Below, piece after piece: positions 46,736 through 63,043 of a stretch of DNA of 64,000 nucleotides (the stretch's first letter is position 1; each line of letters starts with the position of its first letter). The position numbers were made by a program, and so were the translations under genes. A model generated the notes under the pieces. That model saw only the letters and a list, made by a program, of their open reading frames with translations. It ran no database searches and had not been told where the DNA came from. Origin of the DNA: Halioglobus sp. (lineage in GTDB: Bacteria > Pseudomonadota > Gammaproteobacteria > Pseudomonadales > Halieaceae); the NCBI GenBank assembly GCA_002699145.1, contig PABK01000060.1:62001-126000 (forward strand), given 5' to 3'.

Positions 46736-48904
46736 CTAGTGCGAGCTGCCCACGATGTCGACAAAAATCCCGGACAGGTGTGACATACCCGACAGCGCTT
46801 CAATATTGTCCGCCCCGTCGCCGGCGAGGTAGTTGGAGTTCACCCCGGGGTGCTGGCGCGCATGGCTCAGGCCGTCAGCATTCTTGTGGCCCCAGCACTG
46901 GGGAATCGCCACCGTGCGCGGCATCATCTCGTCGCTGACTTTCACCGGGATGCGGATACTGCCGAAAGCGGAACGCACGGTGACCTCGTCACCAGTGCCC
47001 ACGCCGATGCTGTGCGCGTCCTCGGGATTCAGGTAGGCGTAGTTGGTCTCGTCCTTCACCAGTCGCGGCACGTTGGCGGAGGCCGTGTTCATGCGCTTGA
47101 TCTCGCGCTTGCCGATCAGCTTGAACTCCTGGCGCCTGGCGCGTTCCTCCTCGAACAGCTCCGGCGCGCTCGCGGCGAGGGTCGCCACGTAGTCTGCCGG
47201 GGCCAGGTGGACGCGACCGTCCTGCGTCAGTACGCGATCGGTGCCGAGAAAGTTGCCGCCGCGATTCGGCGACAACAGCAGCCCGTGGCGGTGTTGTTGC
47301 AGGAAGGCCTTGCGCCCGGGCAGGCCGCCCTTCTTCAGCATGCCGTCGATCATTTTTTCCGGGGTCAGTGCGAGTCTGCGCAGCCAGCGGCGCGGCGCAT
47401 ACGCCAGCCGTGTATTCAAGCGCAGCAGCTGCGCCAGCCAGCGCTTGCCGAACATGGTCAGCCCGGCGGCTTCGGCCAGGCGGCTGTAAATCCACCATTC
47501 GTGGCGCACGTTCTGGGGTGGCTCGACAACCGCGTCGCTGTAGCTCATGTACGGCACCGGTGTACAGGCGGTGAAACTCTGCAGCGCGTAGGGCAGTTCG
47601 GCGCGCTCCAGCCAGGTCGGCGCCGGCAGTATGTAGTGAGCGAGATTGCCCACCTCGTTGCGAAACAGGTCTATGCATACCAGCAGCTCCAGGTCGGCGA
47701 AGGCGCGGTCCAGCCGTCCGTCCGGGTTGGAGCAGGCCAGTAGCGGGTTGCTCGCCTCGACGATCATGCCGCGCACCCGGCCGCTCTCCATGTCCGCCGC
47801 GAGCATGCCCGAGGGCTGCAGGCCTACCACGCTGACCAGCCCGTCCTCGCGGTCGACGCGTGCGGTGAGCTGTCCCTCCTCCTTGATCTGCCGCGCCATG
47901 TCGAACAGCCCCTCACCCATGAGCATGCCGCCGGGCCGGTCGAGATTGCCGGAGATGGCATTGATCGCCTCGAGCAGCCAGAAGCAGAGAGTGCCGCTGC
48001 GGCCCTGGTTGACGCCTGTCGCCATGTACAGGCAGGCACCAGTCGACTGGCGATGGGATGTCACCAGGTCACGCAGCGTGGCCGCGTCGACCCCCGTGAC
48101 CTGCGCCTGCCTTTCGGCTGTCCAGGGAGCGACGGCCTCCCGCAGTGCCTCGAAACCGACCATGTGCCGCTCGACAATCTCCTGGTCTGCCGCGCCCTGT
48201 TGTATCAGCTCGCGACAGAAAGCGGCGAGAAAGTACAGGTCCGTGTCGGGGCGAATGAACAGGTGCTCTCCCGCCTGCGCGGTCTCGATGCGCCGGGGAT
48301 TGACGAACACGACGCGGCCACCGCGTTTCACCACCGCCTTGAAACGCTGCACAGCGCCGGGCAGGTGGTACAGGGTGTTGCCGGACACCGCCGGGTTGGC
48401 TCCAAGCACCATGACGAATTGCGTATTGTCGATATCCGGGTAGGCCAGGCGGAACGGCGAGCCGTACATGTCCTCGCAGACGCGAAACTTGTTGGTGGTA
48501 TCGCAGGTGCCGGTGCCGTACATGCGGCGCGACCCCAGCGCCTGGTAGAACGCGTTGCGGAACATCGGCGCCAGCAGGTTGGCGCCGCCGGCGGAACCGA
48601 CCAGGTGGGCGAAGCTCTGTGCCCCGTGGCGGTCCACGAGGGCGCGAATCTTCGCGCCGATTTCCGCCAGCGCCTGGTCCCAGCTGATGGTTTGCCAGCT
48701 GTCGCCGACGCGCTTCTGCGGCGCGGTGAGGCGGTCCGGGCTGTTTTGTACCTTGTCGAAATGTATGCCCTTGACGCAGGAGTAGCCCTTGCTGACCACG
48801 TGCGCCTTGTCCGGCCGGATTTTCACCACCCGGTTGTCCTGGACATCGACTTCCAGGCCGCAGGTGGCCTCGCAGGTACGGCAGAAGGTGTAGCGGGTTT
48901 CCAT
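46736..48904 (-). CDS. Molybdopterin-dependent oxidoreductase (formate dehydrogenase/DMSO-reductase family)
   Basis: This 722-residue protein is of the DMSO reductase superfamily. The N-terminal [4Fe-4S] ligands are Cys8, Cys11, Cys15 and Cys43 (FCRTCEATC and KGYSCVKG). Cofactor regions include VGSAGGANLLAPMF, ANPAVSGNTLYHLPG, TGVNQGRSGTLCFWLLEAIN and the C-terminal aspartate-decarboxylase-like domain (LNPEDAHSIGVGTGDEVTVR, VAIPQCWGHKNADGL). There is no Tat signal, so it is cytoplasmic. Electron-transfer partner subunits are not adjacent. The substrate is unknown, and the gene is sometimes annotated as anaerobic dehydrogenase. It is divergent from the acyl-CoA ligase gene. Confidence 0.92.
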   Translation of the reverse strand: METRYTFCRTCEATCGLEVDVQDNRVVKIRPDKAHVVSKGYSCVKGIHFDKVQNSPDRLTAPQKRVGDSWQTISWDQALAEIGAKIRALVDRHGAQSFAHLVGSAGGANLLAPMFRNAFYQALGSRRMYGTGTCDTTNKFRVCEDMYGSPFRLAYPDIDNTQFVMVLGANPAVSGNTLYHLPGAVQRFKAVVKRGGRVVFVNPRRIETAQAGEHLFIRPDTDLYFLAAFCRELIQQGAADQEIVERHMVGFEALREAVAPWTAERQAQVTGVDAATLRDLVTSHRQSTGACLYMATGVNQGRSGTLCFWLLEAINAISGNLDRPGGMLMGEGLFDMARQIKEEGQLTARVDREDGLVSVVGLQPSGMLAADMESGRVRGMIVEASNPLLACSNPDGRLDRAFADLELLVCIDLFRNEVGNLAHYILPAPTWLERAELPYALQSFTACTPVPYMSYSDAVVEPPQNVRHEWWIYSRLAEAAGLTMFGKRWLAQLLRLNTRLAYAPRRWLRRLALTPEKMIDGMLKKGGLPGRKAFLQQHRHGLLLSPNRGGNFLGTDRVLTQDGRVHLAPADYVATLAASAPELFEEERARRQEFKLIGKREIKRMNTASANVPRLVKDETNYAYLNPEDAHSIGVGTGDEVTVRSAFGSIRIPVKVSDEMMPRTVAIPQCWGHKNADGLSHARQHPGVNSNYLAGDGADNIEALSGMSHLSGIFVDIVGSSH

Positions 48905-49109
48905 GGCGCGGGTCCTGTGGCTTCCGGTACTGCGGGCATTTCATCACCACGCCGGGGAGATTTGAAGAACGGCGGTTCAGCAATCCGCACCGTCACCGTT
49001 CTACTGTGGTTTTCGACGGCAACGCCGTGCTGGCCTATTATTGTTCCAGTGCCGCGCTGTCGCGCGGACAGTACCGGTAATCATAACAATACCCCTGGAG
49101 ACCTGTAGC

Positions 49110-50729
49110 ATGAGCCTGAGCGAATCCTGCGCCGTGGGTACCGACGACCCTGTTGTGCGCGACCTGACCATCGGCGACGCACTGCGCGAGGCGGCCGCCG
49201 CCGCGCCGCAGCGACCGGCACTGGTCGCCGGCAGCGCGGACCCCGCGGCCCGGCGGCAGTGGAGCTACAGCGAGCTGCTGGCGCAGTCGGAGGAGGTGGC
49301 GCACGCGTTGCTCGCGCGCTTCCGGCCCGGCGAGCGGGTCGCCGTGTGGGCGCCGAATATCCCCGAGTGGGTGTTGCTGGAGTACGGCGCGGCCCTCGCC
49401 GGTGTCGTGCTGGTTACCGTCAACCCGTCCTACCAAGCCGAGGAGCTCGCCTACGTGCTCAACCAGTCACGTGCGGCGGGCATCTTCCTGCTGCGCGAGT
49501 TTCGCGGCAATCCCATGGGGGAACATCTGCAGGCCGCCCGCGACCGCTGCCCGCACCTGCGCGAGGTCCTGTACATCGAGGCCTGGGAGGCGTTCCTGCA
49601 GGACGCGACTGCCGCTAGCGCCCTGCCGGCGGTCGCGCCGGGAGATGCGTGCATGATCCAGTACACCTCGGGCACAACGGGCTTCCCGAAAGGCGCGCTG
49701 CTGCACCACCGCGGCCTGGTCAACAACGGCGCTCACACCATGGCGACGAACGGCGCGCGCGACGGCTGTGTGTATGTGGGTATCATGCCCCTGTTCCACA
49801 CGGCCGGCTGCGTGCTGGCGGTACTGGGTGCCCTGGCCTGCCGCGGCACGCTGGTGCTGGTGGAAATGTTCGAGCCGGGCCTGGTACTGGAACTCATGGA
49901 AGCGTATCGCGCCAACGCAATGCTCGGTGTGCCGACCATGCTGGTGGCGCTGCTGGAACACCCGGACTTTAGCCGGCGCGACCTGTCCAGCGTGGAAGTG
50001 ATCTGTTCCGGCGGTTCCACCGTGCCGGCGGCACTGGTACAGCGCCTGGAGCAGGTCCTGGACGCGCCCTTTACCATTGTGTTCGGGCAAACCGAGTGCT
50101 CGCCGGTCGCCTGCATGACGCGGCCCGACGACAGCATCGAGGACAAGGCGCACACCCTGGGCCGGCCCATGCCCAACGTGGAAGTGAAAATCGTCGACCC
50201 GCAGAGCGGGGCGACGCTGCCCGTGGGGCAGCTCGGCGAGTTCCTGACCCGGGGTTACCACGTGATGCTCGAGTACTTCGACAACCCGGAAGCCACGGCC
50301 AAGACCATCGACGCGCAGGGATGGCTGCATACCGGCGATCTCTGCTCAATGGACGAACGCGGTTACTGCAGGATCGAGGGACGCTTGAAGGACATGATCA
50401 TCCGCGGCGGAGAGAATATCTATCCGCGCGAGATCGAGGAGTTGCTGTTCAAACACCCGCAGGTCGGTGAGGTGGCGGTGGTCGGCCTGCCCGACGAGCG
50501 TATGGGAGAGGAGGTCGGCGCGTTCCTGCGTCCGGCGCCAGGGCAGTCCCTGGAGCGCGATGAGCTGTTCGCCTACCTGCGCGAGCACCTGTCGCCGCAG
50601 AAGACGCCGCGCCTGTGGTTTGAAGTCGACGCCTTCCCGCTAACCGGCTCCGGCAAGATCCAGAAGTTCGCCCTGCGCGAGCAGTGGCAGGCGGGGCAGT
50701 GCCGTGAGCTGACGGCCGCGTCCGCGTGA
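49110..50729 (+). CDS. Acyl-CoA ligase (AMP-binding, fatty-acid/aryl type)
   Basis: This 539-residue adenylate-forming enzyme activates a carboxylic acid to its CoA thioester with ATP. The P-loop is YTSGTTGFPKGALL, the A5 motif is VFGQTECSP, the A7 motif WLHTGDLCSMDERG, the A8 hinge RLKDMIIRGGENIYP and the A10 lysine GSGKIQKFALRE. All core motifs are intact. The ATG at 49110 is preceded by CTGGAG at 9 bases. The divergent molybdo-enzyme and the second, interrupted ligase nearby place it in a catabolic region, and the carboxylic-acid substrate may be branched or aromatic (inference). Confidence 0.92.
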   Translation: MSLSESCAVGTDDPVVRDLTIGDALREAAAAAPQRPALVAGSADPAARRQWSYSELLAQSEEVAHALLARFRPGERVAVWAPNIPEWVLLEYGAALAGVVLVTVNPSYQAEELAYVLNQSRAAGIFLLREFRGNPMGEHLQAARDRCPHLREVLYIEAWEAFLQDATAASALPAVAPGDACMIQYTSGTTGFPKGALLHHRGLVNNGAHTMATNGARDGCVYVGIMPLFHTAGCVLAVLGALACRGTLVLVEMFEPGLVLELMEAYRANAMLGVPTMLVALLEHPDFSRRDLSSVEVICSGGSTVPAALVQRLEQVLDAPFTIVFGQTECSPVACMTRPDDSIEDKAHTLGRPMPNVEVKIVDPQSGATLPVGQLGEFLTRGYHVMLEYFDNPEATAKTIDAQGWLHTGDLCSMDERGYCRIEGRLKDMIIRGGENIYPREIEELLFKHPQVGEVAVVGLPDERMGEEVGAFLRPAPGQSLERDELFAYLREHLSPQKTPRLWFEVDAFPLTGSGKIQKFALREQWQAGQCRELTAASA

Positions 50730-51365: not shown

Positions 51366-53036
51366 CTATTCCTCCACCAGGCGCATGTCCGCGTCGCCGC
51401 GCAGCACATTTTTCAGCACCTTGCCCGCCGCGTTGCGCGGTAGTGGCTGCGCCTGGATTTGCCAGGCAGTGGGAACCTTGAATGCCGCGAGCCTGGCGCT
51501 GCAGTGGGCGTGCAGCGCATCGACCTCGACGCTGCCGCCCGCAGCGACCACCACGACCGCCTTCACCTCCTCTCCCCAATCGCTGTGCGGGACGCCGAAT
51601 ACCGCCGCTTCCACGACCGCGCGGTGGGTCTCCAGGCAGTGCTCGACCTCCACCGGGTAGACATTCTCCGCGTTGCGCAGGATCAGGTCCCGGGCGCGCG
51701 TGTTGATATAGAGAAGCTCGTCCTCGAAGTGGCCGATATCGCCGGTCTTCAGTCAGCCGCCCGGGGCCATGGTCGCCGCGGTGGCCTCGGGGTTGCGCCA
51801 GTAGCCCAGCATGACGCAACTGCCGCGTATGCAGATCTCGCCCTGTTCTCCCGCCGGCAGGTCCCTGTTTTGCTCGTCGCGGATGCTCATCTCGATACCG
51901 GGAAAGACGCGACCCACGGCTTCCGGGTGCTGCCGCAACAGGTCGCCCCAGTTGTGCGTGCCGACGCCGGTGGATTCGGTAAGGCCGTACCCTATCGTCA
52001 TCTGTCCCGCGCTGCCGCAGAAACCGCGGGTCATACGCTGCTGTTGTCGTTTCGAGGTGGGGGCGCCACCCGACCCCAGGCGCTGCACGCTGGAAACGTC
52101 GTACTGCTGGAAGTCCGGGTGGTCCAGCACGCGCGCCGCCATGCTGCCCAGTGACGGCCAGGTGGTGACCTTTTCCGCCTCGATCAGCTGCAGGATTCTG
52201 GCCGGATCGAAACGGCCCAGTGTCCACACGGTTTTCATACCCACACCCAGGCTGGTGATAGCCCCGGTGAACAGCCCCGACAGGTGAAACAGCGGCGCGG
52301 AAAACAGTCCGCAGTGGGGCAGGCCGGCACTGTCGCCGGCCTTGCCCGACTCCATCTCCAGCAGCATCATGCGCAGGCCGCTGAAGACGGTGGAGGAATA
52401 AAAAGTGAGCAGGTTGCGGTGACTGAGCAGTGCGCCCCTGGCGTTGCCGGTGGTGCCGCTGGTGTAGAGAATCACCGCCGGGTCGTCCTCGGCGATGTCC
52501 ACCGCGGGAAGGCCGTCGTCCCGGGTAGTTTCCAGCGCGGCGAAGTCGTCCTCGATACAGACGGTGGGGCAGGGCAGTGTATCGCCGGCGATGCGCGCCA
52601 GGCGCTTGCGGTCGCCCAGCAGCAGCCTGGGCTCGCTGTTGCCGATGCCGTAGAGAATTTCCTCGCGCTGCCACCAGCCGTTGAGCGCGACGCAGATCGC
52701 GCCGATGCTGACCGTCGCCCAGAACGTGATGATCCACTCGGGGTGATTGTCCGCGAGGATGGCCACGCGGTCGCCCCTGGCCACCCCGTACTTATCGCGC
52801 AGTGTATTGGCCACTGCGCAGACCCGTTGGTAGTGCGCGGCAAAGGTGATGCGCTGGTCCTGGCAGACTATATACTCGCCGTCCGCGTGGTGTAGCGAGT
52901 TCTGCACCAGCTCGCGCAGGCAGCGGTGGCGCTCCCTGAAGACCTTGATGGTCTCGCCCAGGACTTCCTCCTGCACGATCTCGAAGGCGCCGCCGGGGGC
53001 GATGAGTTCCTGTTCGATCTGCGCGACGGTCTTCAT
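51366..53036 (-). pseudogene. Acyl-CoA ligase interrupted by an in-frame TGA
   Basis: The frame encodes an AMP-binding ligase of 556 codons, but a TGA at 51755-51753 splits it after the motif MAPGG. The sequence continues in the same frame as LKTGDIGHFEDELLYIN, RARDLILRNAENVYP and NAAGKVLKNVLRG. The intact ligase at 49110 has GWLHTGD at this place, so the TGA replaces the Trp codon TGG by one base. The P-loop YTSGTTGNARGALL and A5 motif GYGLTESTG are intact. Without read-through the product lacks the C-terminal hinge and lysine domain and should be inactive or only half-reactive. A recent nonsense mutation or a sequencing error are both possible. GGGAGG precedes the ATG at 53036. Confidence 0.85.
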
Positions 53037-53053
53037 CCTTTGCCTCCCATGGA

Positions 53054-53209
53054 TCAGGCGCCGGGCGGCCCGAGCAGCTTTTCCGCCGCGGCGCCGTCCA
53101 GCGCCAGGCGCGACAGCTCGCGGCAACCGAACACGTCGCGGTAGAACGCGAGCGAGCGCTGCAGGTCGCTGACGCAGAGCCCGAAGTGTGACAGTCGCTG
53201 TACCTGCAT
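53054..53209 (-). pseudogene. Truncated VOC/glyoxalase-fold protein (N-terminal half module)
   Basis: This 51-codon frame reads RLSHFGLCVSDLQRSLAFYR, the start of a vicinal-oxygen-chelate protein, with the usual metal-ligand His and the SxxFYRDVFG signature. VOC proteins normally need about 120-145 residues with two such modules. Here the frame ends after GPPGA, 17 bases before the ligase start. It begins 13 bases after the stop of the fusion gene, so it lies within the operon. Either the 3' part was deleted or a half-size protein pairs with itself. I favour deletion. Confidence 0.65.
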
Positions 53210-53222
53210 GACGGTCGGCGAC

Positions 53223-56200
53223 TCAGGCGACGATGTCGCCGAGTTGGCGAAAATGGGCGGCGTCCTGCGCGGGCAGCACCGGGGGTTCCTTGCCCAGGGC
53301 GTAGCAGCCGAGCATGATTTCCGCGGAGCGCTCGATGATCTCCACCATGTCGGCGGCGCGGCGCAGCGTGCGCCCGCCGACGATGAGGCCGTGATTCACC
53401 AGCAGCGCCGCCCACTCGTCCTGCATCGCCTCGCCTACCAGGTCCGCCAGCTCCACGGTGCCGGGCATGGTGAAGGGAATGCGCGGGATGTTGCCGAAGA
53501 AGGCCGCCTCGGTGGAGATGGGCAGGAAGGGCAGGCCGGCGTTGGCCAGGATGGTGGCGTTCGGCGCGTGGGCGTGGATGACCGCCGTCGCCTCGGGCTT
53601 CACCTGCAGTATGCGCGTGTGCATGCACCACTCGCTCGATGGCGAGCGCGCGCCGGTATCCAGGCTCTCTCCCTGCATATTGATACGCACCAGGACTTCC
53701 GGCCGCAGGTCGCCCTTGAACAACCGGCTCGGCGTGATCCACAGTTGGTCCTCGCTGTCGGGAATGCGCACGCTGATGTTGCCGCCGGTGGCGGTGATGA
53801 CCTGCGCCTCGTACAGTTCCTGCATGATGGCGACCAGTTCCTCGCGAATATCGCCGGGCTTTAGCGGCGCCGGGGCGGCGGCGCTGCCGGGGCGGGGAAT
53901 GGCGGCGAGGTCGCCGGGGTCGCCCACCGCTGCGCGCGCGGCGGTGTACAGGCGCTGCATGTCCTGGTTCATATGCTGCAGGGTCATGGCCTTGGCCGCG
54001 TCACCCATGAAGGATATCTCGCCGTTCATGGCGCATTCCATGGTGTCGATTGTGCCGCTGAACATGCCGTCGAGGATCTCGCCGCGCATCTCCAGGTGCA
54101 CCTCGGCGCCGTGTGCGGGCGCGCCCAGGCCGCTGTGCACCTCCCCCTGGTCGAGCTGGAAGTAGAACTGCAGGCCCAGGTCGTAGGCGTTGAAGTGCAG
54201 CGTGACCTCCTGGCCGGCGCTGAAAGCGCGCACCGCGGGATCCGCCGCCAGGCCGGCGCAGAACTCCGCGAGAACGGCGCGCATGTTGGCCACGATCTCA
54301 GCGGATGCGGTGGCGCGTTCGCCGCTGTCGGCCCGCTGCGCCTGTGCCGGCCTGGCGTCGCGCTGCAGGTCCGTGACCGCCGGGCCGCCTCGCTGCGCCA
54401 GTTGCGCCAGTTCCTGCGCCGTGGGCTCGCGGCGCGGGCCACTCCAGCTGAAGTTTTCCAGCGTCTGCGGGTTGAGCACGTTGTGCGGTCGCCCGCCATC
54501 CAGCAATTGCAACAGGGCCGCGGACACGCAGTCGCCCTGGTGGGCGGCGACCTCGCGGGTATTGCCCGCGGAGTGGGGGGTGGTAATGACCCCGGGGTGT
54601 TGTACCAGGGGGTGGTCAAAGCCGGGCGGCTCGACGGCGAAGGTGTCCAGCGCGGCGCCGCCGATGCGCTCCTGTTGCAGCGCCTCCACCAGGGCCTGCT
54701 CATCGACCAGGGCGGCGCGCGCGGTGTTGATGAAGAAGGCCCCGGGCTTCATTTTCGCCAGCTGCTGCGCGCCTATCATGCCGGTAGTCTTTGCGGTCAC
54801 CGCCGCGTGCAGGCTGACAAAATCCGCCTGCGCCAGCAGCGTGTCCAGGTCGGTGAGGCGGCAGCCCGCCAGGGCCGCCTGCTCCGGGCTGACGAAGGGG
54901 TCATGGACCAGTATCTCCACGTCGAAGCCCGCCAGGCGCCGGGCAACCGCGCGTCCGACCGCGCCCAGGCCGACCAGGCCTACGGTCTTGCCCCACAGCT
55001 CCACGCCCTGTAACTGGTTGAAGGCCTGGCCCATCTTGCCCATGTTGCCCGCCGTGCAGTCCGGCTGGCGCAGGAACTGGCCTGCTGCGGGCAGCTTGCG
55101 CGCCAGGCTGAGCATGAACGCCACGGCCAGGTCGGCCACCGCGATGGCGTTGCGGCCGGGGGCGAAGAGCACGGGAATGCCGAATGCGCTGCAGGCCTCG
55201 ACGTCGACGTTCACCGCGTCGCCGCGGCAGGCGGCGACCACGCGCAACTGCGGCAGCTGCTGCAGCGCCGCCAGGTCCAGTACGTCCACCTCGGTGACGA
55301 AGACCTGCCGGTCCGCCAGCGCGGCGACCAGGTCCGGCCCGGTGAGCAGGCGGTGATGGTCGCGGAAACTGGCGTACTCCACGTCCATGCGCGCTCCCAG
55401 GCGCTGCAGGGACGCCTCGTCGAAAGAGGCGGACACCAGCGCGACGGGCCGCTCCCGGGGCGGCGAGTGCGCGACGGCGGCAGGCGCGGGTTCGCGCAGC
55501 ATGCGCGGCAGCAGGTGCTCCGCGGCCAGCGGCGCGGTGCTCTCCCGCGCCCGCTCGCGGAAGCGGTTCCAGGTGTCGTAGAGCTGTGCGTTGGCCGCCG
55601 CGTTGTCGCGGTCGGGTGTAAAGTGTCGCCGGTTCGCGCACAGGGCTGCGCCTGCTGCCGCGAAATCCGCGTAGTGGCCCGCGCCGACACCGGCGCACAG
55701 CACGGCGCCCAGGGCGCTGGTCTGCCAGGGGGCCGCCGCCACGACCTCGCGGCCTGTGATATCCGCCACCAGCTGCGTGAAGACGTCGCTGCGCGACAGC
55801 CCGCCGGACAGGGCGATGGCGCCACTATCCAGCTGTGCGCCCTGTGCCGCCAGGCTTGCCTGCAAGCGTTCCAGGTTGGCGCGCAGGGCGCAGGCGCTGC
55901 CCTCCACGGCGGCGCGCGCGACATGGCGGCCGGGGCGCGCATCCTCCGTGCAGGTCATGTGGCTGAGGGTGAGGTGGCCCAGCGGCACGGTCGGCGCGGA
56001 CATGTCCAGCAAATCGGCGCCGAGGGTGGAGAGCATGCCGGCGGCGCCGGGCTCGGACAGTTGCGCCTCGGCGAACAGGCGCGACTCGGGCTGGGGTGCG
56101 TCCGGGAACAGTGTCCTGGCCAGCATGCCCAGGGAGTGTCCCATGGCGCCGCCGTTGCTCTCCAGCACCCAGGCTCCGGGCAGCGCGTGGTGCGCGGTCT

Positions 56201-57053
56201 GCATTGCGCCGGTCGCGTCGACCAGCGGCGTATCCAGCACCACCTGCAGCGGCACGGTGGTGCCGCCGACCACCCCCGCCTGACCCGGCGCGGTCACACC
56301 GCTGCCCAGCAGGCTCATCTGCGAATCGCCGCCCCCCATAACCACCTGCACCGCGCTGTGCAGGCCCAGGTGCGCGGCGGCCTCGTCGGTGAGTGCGCCC
56401 AGCCGGGCGCCGGCCGGCGCGATAGCGGGGAAGATCGCGCGCGGCAGGGCGAGTTCGTCGATGAGCTCCAGGGCCCAGTCCGCCCGCGCAACCTGCAGCA
56501 GGCCGGTGGCGCTGCCCTGGGAGGGGTCGACGGCGCGCGCGCCGCACAGCCGCTGGTTCAGCCATTCGCCGACGCCATACAGGGTCGCGACGCGGCCGAA
56601 GCGCTGCGGGTCCTGTTTGCGCAGCCAGGCAAGGCGCGCCGCCGCGTGCAGCGGCAGGGCGCAGGAACCCGTGGTCGCCGACAGCGTTTCACCGAGGCGT
56701 TCGGCCAGTTCGAAGCTCTCGCCCGCGGCGCGCGCGTCGGTGTTGGGTACGGCGAGTAACACCGCCCCGGCGTCATCGGTCAGCACCGTGCTGAAGCGGA
56801 TGGCGGAAACCGCCAGGGCGCTGACCGCGGCGCCGTCGATGCCGGCGCCAGCCAGCGCCTCGCGGGAGGCCTCGCCGACCGCCCGCCACAGGCTCGCCAG
56901 GTCCAGGTCGAAGCCGGTGCCGAAGGTGCCGTGCGCCGGTATGAAACGCCAGGGCCTGGCGCTGGCGGCACTGGCCCCGGTCTCGGTATCGACCAGCAGG
57001 CAGCGCACGCCGCTGCCGCCGAGATCGAAACCCATCAACCATGGATTTGCCAT
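53223..57053 (-). CDS. Four-domain fusion: FGGY kinase / D-2-hydroxyacid dehydrogenase / SCP2-like / class II aldolase
   Basis: This single 1276-residue frame holds four parts. Residues 1-520 are an FGGY sugar kinase (MGFDLGGSGVRCLLVD, VVGGTTVPLQVVL, ALSGGLSRSDVFTQLVADI). Residues about 535-865 are a D-isomer 2-hydroxyacid dehydrogenase (GLVGLGAVGRAVARRLAGFD, catalytic Arg in AACRGDAVN, Glu in TFAVEPPG, His in TPHSAGNTRE). Residues about 915-1035 look like an SCP2 sterol-carrier domain (LDGMFSGTIDTMECAMNGEI). Residues about 1065-1276 are a class II aldolase/adducin domain (ATGGNISVRI, VIHAHAPNATILA, LLVNHGLIVGG). These are usually separate operon genes. All key residues I can check are present. 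The ATG at 57053 follows AGGGA. It probably oxidises, phosphorylates and splits a hydroxy acid. Confidence 0.85.
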   Translation of the reverse strand: MANPWLMGFDLGGSGVRCLLVDTETGASAASARPWRFIPAHGTFGTGFDLDLASLWRAVGEASREALAGAGIDGAAVSALAVSAIRFSTVLTDDAGAVLLAVPNTDARAAGESFELAERLGETLSATTGSCALPLHAAARLAWLRKQDPQRFGRVATLYGVGEWLNQRLCGARAVDPSQGSATGLLQVARADWALELIDELALPRAIFPAIAPAGARLGALTDEAAAHLGLHSAVQVVMGGGDSQMSLLGSGVTAPGQAGVVGGTTVPLQVVLDTPLVDATGAMQTAHHALPGAWVLESNGGAMGHSLGMLARTLFPDAPQPESRLFAEAQLSEPGAAGMLSTLGADLLDMSAPTVPLGHLTLSHMTCTEDARPGRHVARAAVEGSACALRANLERLQASLAAQGAQLDSGAIALSGGLSRSDVFTQLVADITGREVVAAAPWQTSALGAVLCAGVGAGHYADFAAAGAALCANRRHFTPDRDNAAANAQLYDTWNRFRERARESTAPLAAEHLLPRMLREPAPAAVAHSPPRERPVALVSASFDEASLQRLGARMDVEYASFRDHHRLLTGPDLVAALADRQVFVTEVDVLDLAALQQLPQLRVVAACRGDAVNVDVEACSAFGIPVLFAPGRNAIAVADLAVAFMLSLARKLPAAGQFLRQPDCTAGNMGKMGQAFNQLQGVELWGKTVGLVGLGAVGRAVARRLAGFDVEILVHDPFVSPEQAALAGCRLTDLDTLLAQADFVSLHAAVTAKTTGMIGAQQLAKMKPGAFFINTARAALVDEQALVEALQQERIGGAALDTFAVEPPGFDHPLVQHPGVITTPHSAGNTREVAAHQGDCVSAALLQLLDGGRPHNVLNPQTLENFSWSGPRREPTAQELAQLAQRGGPAVTDLQRDARPAQAQRADSGERATASAEIVANMRAVLAEFCAGLAADPAVRAFSAGQEVTLHFNAYDLGLQFYFQLDQGEVHSGLGAPAHGAEVHLEMRGEILDGMFSGTIDTMECAMNGEISFMGDAAKAMTLQHMNQDMQRLYTAARAAVGDPGDLAAIPRPGSAAAPAPLKPGDIREELVAIMQELYEAQVITATGGNISVRIPDSEDQLWITPSRLFKGDLRPEVLVRINMQGESLDTGARSPSSEWCMHTRILQVKPEATAVIHAHAPNATILANAGLPFLPISTEAAFFGNIPRIPFTMPGTVELADLVGEAMQDEWAALLVNHGLIVGGRTLRRAADMVEIIERSAEIMLGCYALGKEPPVLPAQDAAHFRQLGDIVA

Positions 57054-57233: not shown

Positions 57234-58172
57234 ATGAGTGATCGAATTCCGCTGCCCATGCCCTTCGGCTGGTTCCGCGTCGCCGAGTCCAGCGACCTGG
57301 CCGCCGGGGAGGTGCAGTCCATTCACTACCTGGGCAAGGACTTCGTACTGTTTCGCACTGCGCAGGGCGAGGCCAGCGTGATGGATGCCTACTGCCCGCA
57401 CCTCGGGGCGCACCTGGGCTACGGCGGCGAGGTGGTGGGCGACAGCATTCGCTGCCCCTTCCACCACTGGCGCTTCGACTGCAGTGGCGCCTGTGTCGAG
57501 GTGCCCTACGCTAAACGCATACCGCCGAAGGCGCGCATCAAGACCTACCCGACCTGTGAGAAGAACGGCATCATTTTCATCTGGCACCACCCCCACGACG
57601 AGGCGCCGCGCTGGGAGGTTCCGGAGATTCCCGAGTTGACCGCCGAGGTGGGCTGGCTGGACATTGTCTATCACACCGCGCGCGTGCGCAGCCACCCGCA
57701 GGAAATGGCGGAAAACGTCGTCGACTCCGCCCACTTCCGCTACGTGCACGGCACGCCGGACATTCCGGAAAAGACCTTTACCTTCGATGGCCATATCATG
57801 CGCGCCTTCCAGGGGCTGACCTTCAGCACGCCGGACGGCGAACTCAAGGGCAGCGTGAACATCGAGTCCCACGGCGGCAGCATCGGCATCACGCGCTTCG
57901 AGGGCATCGGCGAGACCTTGCTGGTGATTACCGGCACGCCGGTGGACGAGGAGCTGCACGAGTCGGTGATCCGCTTCCGCTTCCGCGTGGTGGACGGTGA
58001 CGAGGCCACCGCGCAGGCGCTGGGCGACGCCTTCATCGCCGAGGTTACGCGCCAGCACAGCCAGGACGTGCCCATCTGGGAGCACAAGAAGTTCCACGAA
58101 ACCCCGGTGCTGTGCGACGGCGACGGGCCGATACACTCCATCCGCAAGTACTACCAGCAGTTTTACGCCTAA
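57234..58172 (+). CDS. Rieske non-heme iron oxygenase (KshA/DAF-36-like)
   Basis: This 312-residue oxygenase component has Rieske [2Fe-2S] ligands Cys54, His56, Cys74 and His77 (YCPHLGAHLG and RCPFHHW). The mononuclear iron site is ENVVDSAHFRYVHG, with the Asp-x2-His-x4-His arrangement. The overall form recalls 3-ketosteroid 9-alpha-hydroxylase and cholesterol 7-desaturase (DAF-36/Neverland) enzymes, so a steroid- or terpenoid-like substrate is likely but unproven. No ferredoxin reductase is adjacent. It is divergent from the four-domain fusion gene, with a 180-base shared promoter region. Confidence 0.9.
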   Translation: MSDRIPLPMPFGWFRVAESSDLAAGEVQSIHYLGKDFVLFRTAQGEASVMDAYCPHLGAHLGYGGEVVGDSIRCPFHHWRFDCSGACVEVPYAKRIPPKARIKTYPTCEKNGIIFIWHHPHDEAPRWEVPEIPELTAEVGWLDIVYHTARVRSHPQEMAENVVDSAHFRYVHGTPDIPEKTFTFDGHIMRAFQGLTFSTPDGELKGSVNIESHGGSIGITRFEGIGETLLVITGTPVDEELHESVIRFRFRVVDGDEATAQALGDAFIAEVTRQHSQDVPIWEHKKFHETPVLCDGDGPIHSIRKYYQQFYA

Positions 58173-58201: not shown

Positions 58202-61200
58202 CTAGCAGCCCGGCGGCACCTGGGTGACGCTGATCCCCGGGTCTTCGCTGGTTACGCCGGTCAGGACCGCGTTGGTATAAAACAGCTTGTCGCGACTCTG
58301 TGCGGAGACGCCGCGCTCGCCCAGTGCGGCGTTGCTGTTGATGAGCGCGGCGCTGGCAGCTGCAAGATCGGCGGGCGACTGGCCCGCGTAGGTGTCCAGC
58401 GCGAAAAACTGGCCGTCGACGATAAAACTCACCCTGCCGCCTGCTCCACTGCCCGTGTACAACTGGAAACTCTCCGTCTGGCACCGTGCCGAGCAACCAT
58501 CGCCATCCGTGGCGTTGCCATCGTCGCACTGTTCCGCGGGGTCCACCAGGCCGTTCTGGCAAATGTTGCAGCGCGGAGTGCCGGGCACGCACAGGGCCGT
58601 CAGCGGCGAGGGTGTACCGGCGGCGATGTCTGAGGGCCCGCTGCCGGTGCGGGTGCGGGTGCCTATGCCGCCGCCTACGAGCAGCAGGCCATCGACGAAC
58701 GCCGGGGCCGAGGCCAGGGCGGAATTGCCCAGGTTGTAACGGCTCAGTAGCGTGCCGTCATCGCCTTCGGTGTTATAGGCGCGCAGGATAGCGAAGGGCA
58801 CCTGCCCGGCGAAGACGAGGCCGGGTACGGCGCTGGTCGGGGCGAAGCTGGCGAATGCGTCGGTGTCCGCGGCGTTGTCCCAGACCACGGCGCCGCTGTC
58901 CATGTCCAGCGCGTGCATGGTCGGGCGCTGTGGCGCTGACGGGGGGCCGTTGGCGGCGTTGCTGCCGGGAGCGGTGGAGAAATAGATGCGGCGCCTGTCC
59001 TGGTCGACGGCGGCGGTGGCGATGATGCCGCCGATGTCGCCGCCGGGCACCACGTTGCGGGTCCAGTAGGGCAGGGCGGAGGGGTCGGTATCGTTCCAGG
59101 CGACGCCGTTGACCTCGTTCACGCCGTCGCGGGCGAGCACATAGTAGGTGCCGTCCTTGTTGCCCACGCCCAACACCTCGCGCTCGGCGCCAGCGAAATC
59201 GATGCTGAACAGGTTGGGCGCGGCGCCGAAGGCCAGGTCCTCGTTGTCCACTTCTCGCGGGCGCCAGCGCCAGGCCGGGTCGCCGTCGTAGTCCAGGGCG
59301 ATGATGGCCTCGTCGAAGGGTGGCATCTGCGGCCCGGGTGCGGGCGTGGCGGGGTCATCGTCCGTGTCGCAGTTGGAGCTGGCGAAATAAAGCAGGCCCC
59401 GGCTCTCGTCCACCGCCGGCGATGACCAGACGTTGCCGCAGCCCGTGGTGCTGCGGTCGAAATCGCAGCCCGGCCGTGAGGCGAGAAAGCCGGCGGGCAG
59501 GTCCAGTTCCGTCTCCGTGTGGTAGCCGTCGAATTTGCGAATATCGTCGCCCGGCAGCGGTCGACAGGTGGCGCCGGTCTCCAGGTCGAAGTACCAGTCC
59601 ATACGTCCACTGCGCGCGTCCAGGCCGTAGAAACCACCCTTGCCGGTGGCGACGTCGTTCACGTCCATGCTGAAGAACACCCGTCCGTCGACCACGGCGG
59701 GTGAACTTTCTATCTGGTTGCGCTCACCGGAGAATCCGCACAGGCCCGGGTGGTTGCCGTACCTGTCATGGCAGCCGCTGCCGGCGGTGAAACGCCAGAT
59801 TTCCTCGCCGTCGACCGCGTCCAGGGCGTACATGATCTGTCCCGCGCCGACAAAGACCACATCGCGGCCGTCGATGCGTGTGACATCTACCGAGCCGGAA
59901 CTGGGGAAGGAAGCGCCCGGTTGTTCCACCGTCTGCACTTCCCAGACCAGGCTGCCGTCGAGCAGGCGCAGCGCGTAAACAGAATAATCCCAGGACTGGA
60001 AGTAGACCACCTGGGTTGGCCCTTCCCCGGGGAGGTTCACGGCGGCGACGCTGGGCGAAGCGGTAATGATGGCGTCGGTGGGGAACTGCCAGGCCCGTTG
60101 CAGCAGGTGCACGTTGGCCTGGGTGATCACCTGCTCGTCGGGATTGTAGAAAAGGCGGTCGTAGGAACCGGCGTAGGTGCGCCACTCGCTCAACGGCTCC
60201 AGGTTGCCGGGCAGGATGGCCACGCCGTCGGGGAATGCCAGGCCCTCGCGTACGATCTGTGGCGGGTTGGGTGCCTCGCCGTCAGAGAAGGTGATGCGCC
60301 GTACCTTGCCGTTCGGCCCCGGGCCCACGGCGGGCAGCGTGCCCTGCAGGTCCAGGTCGGCGTAGTAGATCGTGCCGTCCGGGGCGACGGCGAGGCTCTG
60401 CGGGTTGCCGCTGGCGATTGGCAGTCCGGCAAAGGGGCCGGGGTCGAGAATCTTGCGCACCCGGGTGCCGTCCGGATTGTACTCGGCGATGGTGCCGGTC
60501 AGGTTGGTGGCGATGTACAGGTTGCCGTTGGGCGCCAGCGCGATGCCAGAGTACGTCGACAGCCCGTCCGGGGGCAGGAACACCTCGCGTGTGACCTGTT
60601 CCGCCAGCGGCGACCCCTGGGCGTCGCTGGCGCCGCAACCGCCCTGCGCATCGGGGCCTGTGGGGAAGGGGGGTGAAAAGCGCAGCACCGACAGGCCGCC
60701 GGAGGAGGTGACGTAGACGCGGCCCTGGTCGTCGATGACCGGCTGGCCGGCGGTGCCGATGTCCACGGCGATCTTGCAAAAATTGTTGGAGATTTCCGCG
60801 TTGGGATAAGCCAGCGGTTCCCCCGGGAACACGTCGTAGGGCGGAAACCAGAGAATGAGCTGGCCGTTTGCCGAGCCGACAGCCTGGCTGCCCACGTCCG
60901 TGGTGAACAGGCGCGCGCGGTCGTCGAAGGCACAGCCGAAAGGCTCCGCGCCACTGGTCTGGTAGGTGGCGGTCAGCTTGCCTTCCTGCACGCCGTCGGC
61001 GGAAAACACGCCCCAGCCAGCCGGTGTGTCCGGTTGGCCGGTGTCCTCGCCGAGGACGAAGCGGCCGCTGCCGTCGGGTATGGCACAGATAATGCCATTG
61101 CTGTCGCGGCCGGTGACCGGGTCCAGGGACGCGCGTTCGATGAGAATGTCCTCGACCAGCGTGCTGCCAATGGTGTCCACGTCGTAGCGACGCAGGCGGT

Positions 61201-61351
61201 TGCCCTCGGTGGAGTAGAGCAGCAGGCCGGAGTCGAAAGGGCCTGCCGCGTGGGCGGGGCCAGCGGGTGCCAGTACGGCGGGCAGCGATGCGGCGCAGAG
61301 TGCCAGCGCGGCCGCCAGCGCTGTGCGTGGCGCGAAACGGGTGGGGAACAT
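58202..61351 (-). CDS. Large exported PQQ-like propeller protein with Cys-rich DUF4215 repeat
   Basis: This 1049-residue secreted protein has a signal peptide (ALAAALALCAASLPAVLAPA) ending at HAA. Its first part is NHL/SMP-30-like (GLSTYSGIALAPNGNLYIAT). A PQQ-type eight-bladed propeller follows (about 390-900; GEEIWRFTAGSG, DGRVFFSMDVNDVATGKGGF, CGNVWSSPAVDESRGLLYFA). Near the C-terminus a myxobacterial-type cysteine repeat reads NGLVDPAEQCDDGNATDGDG, with several Cys around it. No heme motif was found. It may bind PQQ outside the cell or only use the fold structurally. GGAGG lies before the ATG. It is convergent with the Rieske gene. Confidence 0.82.
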   Translation of the reverse strand: MFPTRFAPRTALAAALALCAASLPAVLAPAGPAHAAGPFDSGLLLYSTEGNRLRRYDVDTIGSTLVEDILIERASLDPVTGRDSNGIICAIPDGSGRFVLGEDTGQPDTPAGWGVFSADGVQEGKLTATYQTSGAEPFGCAFDDRARLFTTDVGSQAVGSANGQLILWFPPYDVFPGEPLAYPNAEISNNFCKIAVDIGTAGQPVIDDQGRVYVTSSGGLSVLRFSPPFPTGPDAQGGCGASDAQGSPLAEQVTREVFLPPDGLSTYSGIALAPNGNLYIATNLTGTIAEYNPDGTRVRKILDPGPFAGLPIASGNPQSLAVAPDGTIYYADLDLQGTLPAVGPGPNGKVRRITFSDGEAPNPPQIVREGLAFPDGVAILPGNLEPLSEWRTYAGSYDRLFYNPDEQVITQANVHLLQRAWQFPTDAIITASPSVAAVNLPGEGPTQVVYFQSWDYSVYALRLLDGSLVWEVQTVEQPGASFPSSGSVDVTRIDGRDVVFVGAGQIMYALDAVDGEEIWRFTAGSGCHDRYGNHPGLCGFSGERNQIESSPAVVDGRVFFSMDVNDVATGKGGFYGLDARSGRMDWYFDLETGATCRPLPGDDIRKFDGYHTETELDLPAGFLASRPGCDFDRSTTGCGNVWSSPAVDESRGLLYFASSNCDTDDDPATPAPGPQMPPFDEAIIALDYDGDPAWRWRPREVDNEDLAFGAAPNLFSIDFAGAEREVLGVGNKDGTYYVLARDGVNEVNGVAWNDTDPSALPYWTRNVVPGGDIGGIIATAAVDQDRRRIYFSTAPGSNAANGPPSAPQRPTMHALDMDSGAVVWDNAADTDAFASFAPTSAVPGLVFAGQVPFAILRAYNTEGDDGTLLSRYNLGNSALASAPAFVDGLLLVGGGIGTRTRTGSGPSDIAAGTPSPLTALCVPGTPRCNICQNGLVDPAEQCDDGNATDGDGCSARCQTESFQLYTGSGAGGRVSFIVDGQFFALDTYAGQSPADLAAASAALINSNAALGERGVSAQSRDKLFYTNAVLTGVTSEDPGISVTQVPPGC

Positions 61352-61633: not shown

Positions 61634-63043
61634 ATGACACAACCGTTTCCCGACAACGTCTTCCTGCGTGGACCCATGGGGCCCAGCGGCGTGGAGTGCG
61701 ACGCCCCGGACCTCGTCATCCAGGGGGAGCTACCGGCGGATCTGGAGGGCGTGTACTTTCGCAACGGCCCCGACCCCCTCTACCCGCCGCGGGACGGCGA
61801 CGAGTACCACTGGTTTCACGGAGACGGCATGATCCAGCGTTTCGAGTTCGCCGCTGGGCGGGTGTCCTGGCGCAACCGCTGGGTGCGCACGGAAAAGTAC
61901 GCGCTGGAGCGCGCCGCCGGTGAGTCCCTGTTCGGTGTGCTGGGCAACCCGCTGAAGGCCGACCCGGCGGTGGCCAGTGAACACTACAACACGGCGAACA
62001 CCCACGTGGTCTGGCACGGCGGGCGCCTGCTGGCCCTGATGGAGGGCACCATCGCTGTCGAGCTGCAGGCGGACACGCTGGACACGGTGGGCAACTTCGA
62101 TTTCGACGGGCAGGTCGACGGCCCGATCACTGCCCACCCCAAGTTCGACCACGCTACGGGCGAGATGATTTTCTTCGGCAACCAGGCGCGCGGCCCGTTC
62201 AGCGAGTTCCTGCGCCTGAACATCGCCGACCGCGACGGCAGGCTGGTGAAGAGCGAAATGATCCAGGCGCCCTTTCCGTCCTTCGCCCACGACTTTTTCG
62301 TCACCGAACACTACGTGGTGTTTCCGGTCTACCCGCTGGTGTTCAGCCTCGAGCGCGCCATGAAAGGCGGCCTGCCCATGGCCTGGGAACCCGAGCGCGG
62401 TGCGCACTTCGGCGTCCTGCCGCGCAACGGCAGCGCGGCGGACGTGCAATGGTTCGACATGGAGGCGCGCTGGAGCTTTCACATGGTCAATGCCTGGGAG
62501 GACAACGGCGTCATCAAGGTCGACGTGTGCGCCTCCAACGGCACCAACTTCGCCCCCATGGCGGATGGCAGGATGGCGGACCCCGCGATCGGCCTGCAGC
62601 CGCGCCTGCGGCGCTGGACCATCGACCCCGCCGCCGGCAGCAAGGCGGTGTCCGAGGAGATACTGGATGGCGACAGCAGCGGCGAGTTCCCGCGCACCGA
62701 TGACCGCTATATGACGCGGCCCTACCGGCACGCCTACCTTGCCGGCAGCAGTGGCGAGGCCATGGCGTTCGACCAGCTACTGCACTACGACGTGCAGAGC
62801 GGCCGTTGCGTTCGCTGGGGCGACGGCAGTTACCTGCTGGGAGAGCCGATCCTGGCGCCTCGCGGCGAGGACGCCGATGAGGGGGAGGGCTACCTGCTCA
62901 ACCTGGCCTACAACCGGTCCACCGCGCTGTCTGAGCTGCTGGTGCTGGATGCGACGGACGTCGCCGCCGGGCCGCTGGCGCGCGTGATGCTGCCGTTGCG
63001 CATCCCCATGGGCTTCCACGGCTCCTGGATCGGGGCGAGCTGA
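61634..63043 (+). CDS. Carotenoid oxygenase (RPE65/CCD) family protein
   Basis: This 469-residue non-heme iron dioxygenase cleaves a double bond in carotenoids, retinoids or stilbene/lignin-like compounds. The four iron-binding His lie in ITAHPKFD, FAHDFFVTEHYVVF, WSFHMVNAWED and GFHGSWIGAS, as expected for the seven-bladed propeller. The N-terminus PADLEGVYFRNGPDPLYPP is typical. AAGGAGA lies 6 bases before the ATG. There is no signal peptide. It ends 6 bases before the convergent HAD gene. Carotenoid production would be usual in a light-exposed marine bacterium, but biosynthesis genes are not in this window. Confidence 0.93.
   Translation: MTQPFPDNVFLRGPMGPSGVECDAPDLVIQGELPADLEGVYFRNGPDPLYPPRDGDEYHWFHGDGMIQRFEFAAGRVSWRNRWVRTEKYALERAAGESLFGVLGNPLKADPAVASEHYNTANTHVVWHGGRLLALMEGTIAVELQADTLDTVGNFDFDGQVDGPITAHPKFDHATGEMIFFGNQARGPFSEFLRLNIADRDGRLVKSEMIQAPFPSFAHDFFVTEHYVVFPVYPLVFSLERAMKGGLPMAWEPERGAHFGVLPRNGSAADVQWFDMEARWSFHMVNAWEDNGVIKVDVCASNGTNFAPMADGRMADPAIGLQPRLRRWTIDPAAGSKAVSEEILDGDSSGEFPRTDDRYMTRPYRHAYLAGSSGEAMAFDQLLHYDVQSGRCVRWGDGSYLLGEPILAPRGEDADEGEGYLLNLAYNRSTALSELLVLDATDVAAGPLARVMLPLRIPMGFHGSWIGAS

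Follow-up and report, generated by a model that had tools for sequence, protein, structure and literature searches.

The fused gene and its domains

The window analyzed here is a 64,000-nucleotide stretch of a Halioglobus sp. genome (contig PABK01000060.1, positions 62,001 to 126,000), and the gene of interest within it encodes four protein domains in a single open frame. It lies on the minus strand at 53223..57053, runs from an ATG at 57053 to a stop at 53225-53223 with no internal stop, and specifies 1276 residues; the single frame is kept in other genomes. A TTG two codons 5' of the ATG gives a 1278-residue version, P0001, whose numbering is used for all Pfam coordinates, and catalytic residues are numbered from the ATG. 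The domains follow one another as an FGGY kinase, a D-2-hydroxyacid dehydrogenase, an SCP2 domain and a class II aldolase. A sequence-only reading of this DNA had named these parts in this order, with the residues expected of each enzyme, and both the Pfam search and an alignment of 26 fusions bear it out. The product is a real, conserved, and rare four-domain enzyme.

The kinase is made up of an N domain (56304..57035, minus strand; P0001 residues 9-252, E 8e-35, 121 bits) and a C domain (55683..56273, minus strand; residues 263-459, E 3e-14, 53.5 bits). Both score above the Pfam cut-off, and Asp243 of the motif GGGDSQ, which we take to be the catalytic aspartate, is present in all 26 aligned sequences, as in the FGGY carbohydrate kinases. 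The closest solved kinase structure is the autoinducer-2 (AI-2) kinase 5ya0 (174 bits, with the next at 96.5), and LsrK is the best NCBIfam match of the whole protein, at 233 bits against a cut-off of 528.

The dehydrogenase domain (54471..55427, minus strand) is recognized by Pfam as 2-Hacid_dh (residues 545-863) and 2-Hacid_dh_C (646-831, 8e-57). It has the catalytic and NAD domains of a D-2-hydroxyacid dehydrogenase, a GxGxxG motif (GLGAVG), and the Arg779, Glu808 and His827 triad in 26/26 fusions. An extra arginine, Arg610, sits in a CRG motif of the substrate loop and is equally invariant. The motif is common to the archaeal module genes described below and to some separate-gene relatives, whereas ordinary relatives such as L088, L091 and L097 carry a glycine loop in its place; we take this difference to point to a substrate that is not simply a hydroxy acid.

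The aldolase domain (53310..53843, minus strand; residues 1073-1250, E 4e-45) retains Glu1141, His1160 and His1162 in every aligned fusion and His1221 in 25, the last row being cut short. Asn1092, Ser1139 and Ser1140 are also invariant, and Thr1107 is found in 25 of the 26 with a serine in the remaining one. The three histidines are presumably metal ligands, Glu1141 the catalytic glutamate, and the Asn, Ser and Thr residues the phosphate-binding sites of FucA; together they place the domain among the class II dihydroxyacetone phosphate (DHAP) aldolases of the FucA/DrdA type. Among solved structures the window's aldolase is closest to DrdA (6btd, 97.7 bits), followed by L-fuculose-phosphate aldolase 4c24 (92.7) and, lower, 1fua (72.0). 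DrdA also comes first for a Mycobacterium copy, at 98.4 bits with 89.5 for the runner-up, and for an archaeal one, at 134.9 bits with 129.8.

The SCP2 domain (53904..54317, minus strand; Pfam core 53973-54206) is the weakest domain call of the window protein, at 22.7 bits over residues 952-1029 against a cut-off of 21.3, rising to 27.0 bits when the segment is scored alone. SCP2 is a sterol-binding fold, and sequence comparisons uphold the earlier assignment of this middle segment to it. Pfam SCP2 matches all 28 homologous segments (26 fusions and two archaeal genes) at E ≤0.01, with a best value of 5.6e-30, and a profile of the segments finds sterol carrier protein 2 (1c44, E 2e-9) and alkylsulfatases in the PDB. 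In the predicted structure the segment has alpha/beta elements in a helix-strand pattern that is compatible with the SCP2 fold. Of the 50 matches listed by Foldseek for a model of the dehydrogenase, SCP2 and aldolase parts, nearly all were dehydrogenases or proteins related to them, and none bore on SCP2. The AlphaFold models, made to judge whether channeling between opposed active sites is plausible, are mostly confident within domains, and their relative domain placement is unreliable (predicted template modeling scores of 0.46 and 0.64). No isomerase domain was detected by Pfam in the fused protein.

Distribution and relatives of the fusion

The window's genus is represented by 18 genomes, among them that of the window itself, and 15 of these have the gene; the named relatives there mostly carry the label Halioglobus. 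A full-length copy in a single frame is found in eleven of the 15. The other four have partial copies, two of which span almost the whole of a short contig, while one starts at a contig end. No fusion was found at E 1e-100 in the other 122 genomes examined in the family, and in a class-wide sample of 274 genomes the only match at that threshold was the window's own genome, so the gene is rare in the class.

A scan of named genomes gave 109 candidate stretches encoding a relative, of which the best 80 were kept as loci. All four domains stand in one frame in 31 of these 80, and no frame joining kinase, dehydrogenase and aldolase is without SCP2. One of the 31, L044, was set aside because its kinase spans two frames. 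Among the 30 that remain (in L027, L033 and L036 a contig end falls within a domain), the window's genus accounts for 11, and the other 19 come from elsewhere: three Mycobacterium species, one other member of the Pseudomonadales, one of the Spongiibacteraceae, two labeled Proteobacteria, six labeled Myxococcota, Myxococcales or Deltaproteobacteria, one labeled Actinomycetes, and five Chloroflexi including Bellilinea caldifistulae. Two fusions outside the genus carry SCP2 in tandem, one in a Pseudomonadales genome (L037, 10001-14293) and one in an Anaerolineales genome (L053, 109-4533). The other 49 loci are fragments, broken or early-ending frames (L055, L057, L059), separate-gene modules, or encode the dehydrogenase only; in L057, kinase and dehydrogenase share a frame, with no SCP2 or aldolase match in the remaining 0.8 kb of the stretch. 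Long stop-to-stop frames in the Myxococcota (L038, L039) gave the appearance of an N-terminal extension or a fusion to cytochrome P450; the upstream frame was judged spurious because a P450 open reading frame runs across it in a different phase.

A tree built from 82 dehydrogenase sequences unites the fusions with their fragments in a single clade (35 rows, support 100/99). Its sister is a separate-gene relative from the Bacillota, L069 (98/92), and archaeal genes come next (89/56, weak). A single origin of the fusion followed by transfer between phyla would be the simple reading of this topology.

Separate genes for the parts, which in close relatives would have spoken against a true fusion, were seen in distant relatives only. 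In 6 of 52 genomes of the archaeal order represented by a Thermoplasmatales metagenome-assembled genome, SCP2, dehydrogenase and kinase genes are adjacent in this order. An aldolase gene follows the kinase in four of them; in the remaining two, the contig breaks off within the kinase or shortly beyond it, and one of these, L113, has an interrupted dehydrogenase frame. This order is not that of the fusion, and the common set of four is therefore more telling than a simple gene join would be.

Plasmids of Shinella, Paracoccus, Klebsiella and Sagittula carry three-gene modules in which the same three enzyme families as in the fusion lie side by side. Unlike the fusion, these genes are unjoined, have no annotated SCP2 gene with them, and are accompanied by sugar-type or other transporters. 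The closest separate-gene relative, L069 (7732-14668), has a CbiQ-type transporter gene beside it and no SCP2 match, and perhaps serves a small molecule; its module also adjoins a hydrophobic 266-residue protein without a Pfam match. Pairs of FGGY and dehydrogenase genes with no aldolase or SCP2 match were seen in L062, L064, L068, L070-L072 and L074, which come from Nanopelagicaceae, other Actinomycetota and a Spirochaetales bacterium.

Gene neighborhood

Directly downstream of the fusion lies a coenzyme A (CoA) ligase gene (51753..53126, minus strand) that is closest to the steroid-24-oyl-CoA synthetase CasG, with 456 bits over a 457-residue frame and 206 for the next NCBIfam match. The frame ends early, counterparts in relatives being longer, which may reflect a sequencing error or a decaying gene. 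Past its end at 51753 there is a 95-residue open reading frame (51369-51653), out of phase with the ligase, that is related to sequences in L038, L039 and L044. CasG is the best NCBIfam match for six of the ten neighbor ligases scanned, at 607-706 bits with the next best at 353-377. All six lie on the strand of the fusion and within about 1.1 kb downstream of it, with a KshA-like gene in between in L038 and L039. By their scores these six and the window's ligase are near relatives of CasG, not to be filed as CasG itself. A second AMP-forming CoA ligase of the general fatty-acid type (49041..50729, plus strand) is no more than a possible partner.

Divergently oriented on the other side is a Rieske oxygenase gene (57234..58172, plus strand), the product of which is matched best in the PDB by structures of KshA (4qdf, E 1e-49), over residues 6-311. 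Pfam was run on its homologue in L041, where both the Rieske and the KshA_C domains were found, the latter at 140 bits. The ten neighbors scanned in L041 comprise, besides this oxygenase, three acyl-CoA dehydrogenases, an enoyl-CoA hydratase, two CoA ligases, a TetR regulator and a P450, and no isomerase. Among the compared loci, seven others have BLAST relatives of this P450; for the KshA gene the number is eight, the window being one of them.

A search at E 1e-30 of 24 loci, not counting the window, found kin of the ligase in 8 and of the KshA-like protein in 9; neither turned up in four of nine additional loci belonging to the same genus as the window. Within the family (140 genomes), a ligase of at least 66% identity is present in 9 of the 15 fusion carriers and in none of the 125 other genomes, and the same nine carry the KshA-like gene at 72% identity or more, a level seen in no fusion-free genome of the family. 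This count covers the best-looking candidates per genome, with at most 11 ligases scored in each, so weaker copies may be missed. More distant kin exist in the family, the ligase at 39-40% in three fusion-free genomes and the KshA-like protein widely at 36-50%. The nine carriers are all of one genus and are therefore not nine independent events. A steroid-like neighborhood holds for part of the loci only.

Aldehyde dehydrogenase genes accompany some relatives. One adjoins the module of the archaeal locus L073 (304 bits), and a BLAST relative occupies the corresponding position in L066; another lies 5.5 kb away in L050.

Several other genes near the fusions deserve mention. In Bellilinea (L045, 8973-9977) a regulator with a sugar-binding domain (PF04198) lies about 24 bases upstream of the fusion. 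A large conserved gene lies near the KshA-like gene in L046 (14891-17917), L041 (17977-19998) and L059 (18038-21022), the L041 and L046 copies being without a Pfam match. The window itself also contains a pyrroloquinoline quinone (PQQ)-type alcohol dehydrogenase propeller gene (42630-44570), a molybdopterin oxidoreductase gene (46736-48904, minus strand), a gene (58202-61351) whose 1049-residue product has PQQ repeats along with a DUF4215 motif, and an RPE65-family dioxygenase gene closest to the lignostilbene dioxygenases (61634-63043, plus strand).

Proposed reaction and its alternatives

We suggest, at a probability of roughly 0.43, that the fusion acts in catabolism, taking the polyol tail off a steroid-like lipid; the likeliest candidate is bacteriohopanetetrol (BHT) or some other hopanoid whose tetrol tail is free. 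The reactions, the order of the steps and the substrate are all things that we infer from the domains and their surroundings. The hydrophobic ring body would be held by SCP2, whose fold suits a pentacyclic structure, while the FGGY domain phosphorylates the terminal C35 hydroxyl of BHT. The dehydrogenase, with NAD, would then oxidize the adjacent C34 hydroxyl, giving a 5-substituted 5-deoxyribulose-1-phosphate, which is a substrate of the DrdA type, and the aldolase would cut between C33 and C32 to release DHAP and bishomohopan-32-al. The aldehyde would subsequently be oxidized to the acid, activated by the CasG-like ligase and passed to β-oxidation.

The chemical fit of BHT to such a scheme follows from its origin. 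In the account of its synthesis in PMC12583986, a 5'-deoxyadenosyl radical is added to diploptene, adenine is removed and the resulting ribosylhopane is converted by a last enzyme that is not known; the tail is therefore a 5-substituted 5-deoxyribitol. Since the starting compound would be an alditol, a dehydrogenase and no isomerase is what would be expected in the protein. For CasG and its orthologue StdA1, side-chain length is described as apparently decisive and the nucleus as less important (PMC8399759), and a CasG-like ligase is therefore predicted for the next step. The acid formed would bear the side chain -CH(CH3)-CH2-CH2-COOH on a five-membered ring, which is also the side chain of cholan-24-oic acid.

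The lipid would be of foreign origin, taken from outside as food. A search for squalene-hopene cyclase (PF13249) in 28 genomes, some of them incomplete (22 with the fusion, 2 with the archaeal set, 3 genus members without the fusion and 1 with a separate-gene module), gave a single positive genome, so a supply from outside would be needed and a role of the carriers in hopanoid biosynthesis was set aside. Halieaceae, Spongiibacteraceae and Mycobacterium are all on record in PMC5790920 among cholesterol-growing isolates, and the same source describes sterol- and hopanoid-like deep-ocean matter as a potential growth substrate.

A number of observations weigh against this reading. The preference for DrdA over the next aldolase is by 5 to 9 bits only, and for the Bellilinea copy 6voq comes first (95.1 bits) with DrdA second (86.5). 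Four of the ten neighbor ligases scanned belong to other ligase groups, and those of the window and its relatives fall under the curated CasG cut-off of 750 bits, the window frame being short. At E 1e-30, 16 of the 24 loci have no ligase match and 15 no KshA-like match, the Mycobacterium and Chloroflexota loci among them (three each) lacking both, as do 6 of the 15 fusion carriers of the genus at 66% and 72% identity. No aldehyde dehydrogenase was identified among the window neighbor genes scanned, and in the Mycobacterium locus L032 the gene after the fusion matches Aldedh partly only (70 bits, residues 183-348). D-2-hydroxyacid dehydrogenases usually act beside a carboxylate, and we know of none that oxidizes a polyol phosphate. 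Binding and turnover of a hopanoid by the fusion are predictions, and oxidation of hopanoid rings by the KshA-like enzyme is hypothetical.

The alternative that survives best, although unlikely, keeps the same chemistry, yielding DHAP and a hydrophobic aldehyde, and changes the substrate to another polyol-bearing lipid, for instance an unusual type of steroid, the core of a glycolipid or a polyol with a long chain. Steroid-type neighbors in several loci (CasG-like, KshA-like, P450 and acyl-CoA dehydrogenases) leave the ring system unnamed, and the fusions of Chloroflexota and Mycobacterium have no CasG-like or KshA-like match on the stretches analyzed. What favors BHT is its 5-substituted 5-deoxyribitol tail; no steroid with a straight tetrol side chain is known to us.

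It is improbable that the substrate is small and soluble, such as a 5-deoxypentitol, methylthioribitol or a sugar acid, with SCP2 being structural or binding something else. The modules of Shinella and Klebsiella that lack SCP2 and lie beside sugar ABC transporters, the CbiQ-type transporter beside L069, and the regulator upstream of the Bellilinea fusion would all suit such a substrate. They are opposed by the constancy of SCP2 (31/31 joined frames, and a separate SCP2 gene beside the archaeal module), by its duplication in two loci outside the genus, and by the CoA-ligase and acyl-CoA dehydrogenase neighbors of several loci.

The sequence-only reading had envisaged a hydrophobic 2-hydroxy acid that is oxidized, phosphorylated and cleaved. 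Its general idea of a hydrophobic molecule that is phosphorylated, oxidized and cut at a carbon-carbon bond gains support from part of the neighborhood; its substrate class does not fare so well, and we consider it quite improbable. 2-Hydroxy acids are the normal substrates of the dehydrogenase family, and the catalytic Arg, Glu and His are kept. FGGY kinases, on the other hand, normally phosphorylate a terminal CH2OH, and a lipid hydroxy acid, with its carboxylate at the far end, offers no terminal hydroxyl. The aldolase retains the phosphate-site residues of FucA, and CRG with its invariant arginine stands in place of the usual glycine substrate loop. A hydrophobic polyol, acted upon in the order kinase, dehydrogenase, aldolase, fits better.

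An assembly artefact, a frameshift or missing base, or a chance fusion is rejected, with virtually no probability left to it, by the uninterrupted frame that 11 members of the genus share with 19 loci beyond it and by the well-supported dehydrogenase clade.

Comparison with known systems

No protein with this domain order was found in the open-access literature searched, in agreement with the earlier impression that none has been described. The nearest parallel in chemistry is the DHAP shunt of DrdK, DrdI and DrdA, which disposes of 5-deoxyribose and which, in the account of PMC6079011, likewise proceeds by phosphorylation to a 5-deoxyketopentose-1-phosphate and class II cleavage to DHAP and an aldehyde. 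DrdA converts 5-deoxyribulose-1-phosphate into DHAP and acetaldehyde, is reported there to accept various aldehydes and has a larger aldehyde pocket than FucA. The equilibrium is described as favoring condensation (PMC6079011), and pull from later steps would therefore be needed in our scheme. The shunt differs from the fusion in that its enzymes, as presented in that source, are separate proteins with a kinase resembling methylthioribose kinase and no lipid-binding domain, and in that it starts from a sugar with an isomerase, where the fusion has a dehydrogenase and no isomerase partner.

LsrK, to which the kinase part comes nearest among solved structures, works in AI-2 handling as a stand-alone enzyme, and the fusion falls far below its cut-off. 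Peroxisomal MFE-2 is a multidomain lipid enzyme in which an SCP2 domain presents the substrate; its other catalytic domains and its pathway are not those of the fusion. The proposal has in common with bile-acid side-chain degradation (CasG, acyl-CoA dehydrogenases and the steroid aldolase Sal; PMC8399759) the idea that a ring system loses its side chain by retro-aldol cleavage. Unlike the metal aldolase proposed here, which would act on a ketose-phosphate prior to CoA activation, Sal resembles thiolases and uses CoA thioesters as substrates.

Hopanoids are very abundant in sediments, and their side-chain-shortened acids serve as biomarkers. The C30-C34 hopanoic acids are typically ascribed to oxidative cleavage of vicinal diols in bacteriohopanoids (PMC4339782), and the open-access texts searched name no enzyme for this side-chain cleavage. 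Nothing on the degradation of BHT was found in them, one mention of 'hopanoid degradation' referring to a chemical method. Tentatively, and with the odds somewhat against it, we propose a lipid DHAP shunt as the first step of bacteriohopanepolyol catabolism, in which the fusion would break down the C35 polyol tail, leaving DHAP and a C32 hopanal. It would link hopanoid breakdown to a side-chain pathway of the bile-acid type and provide an enzymatic, oxygen-independent origin for sedimentary C32 hopanoic acids, the aldol route needing no oxygen. If this is true, turnover of BHT could be traced by a gene in marine, soil and anaerobic microbes and would leave a well-defined product to search for, and the fusion would be a case of a sugar-phosphate pathway turned into a lipid pathway by the addition of a sterol-carrier domain.

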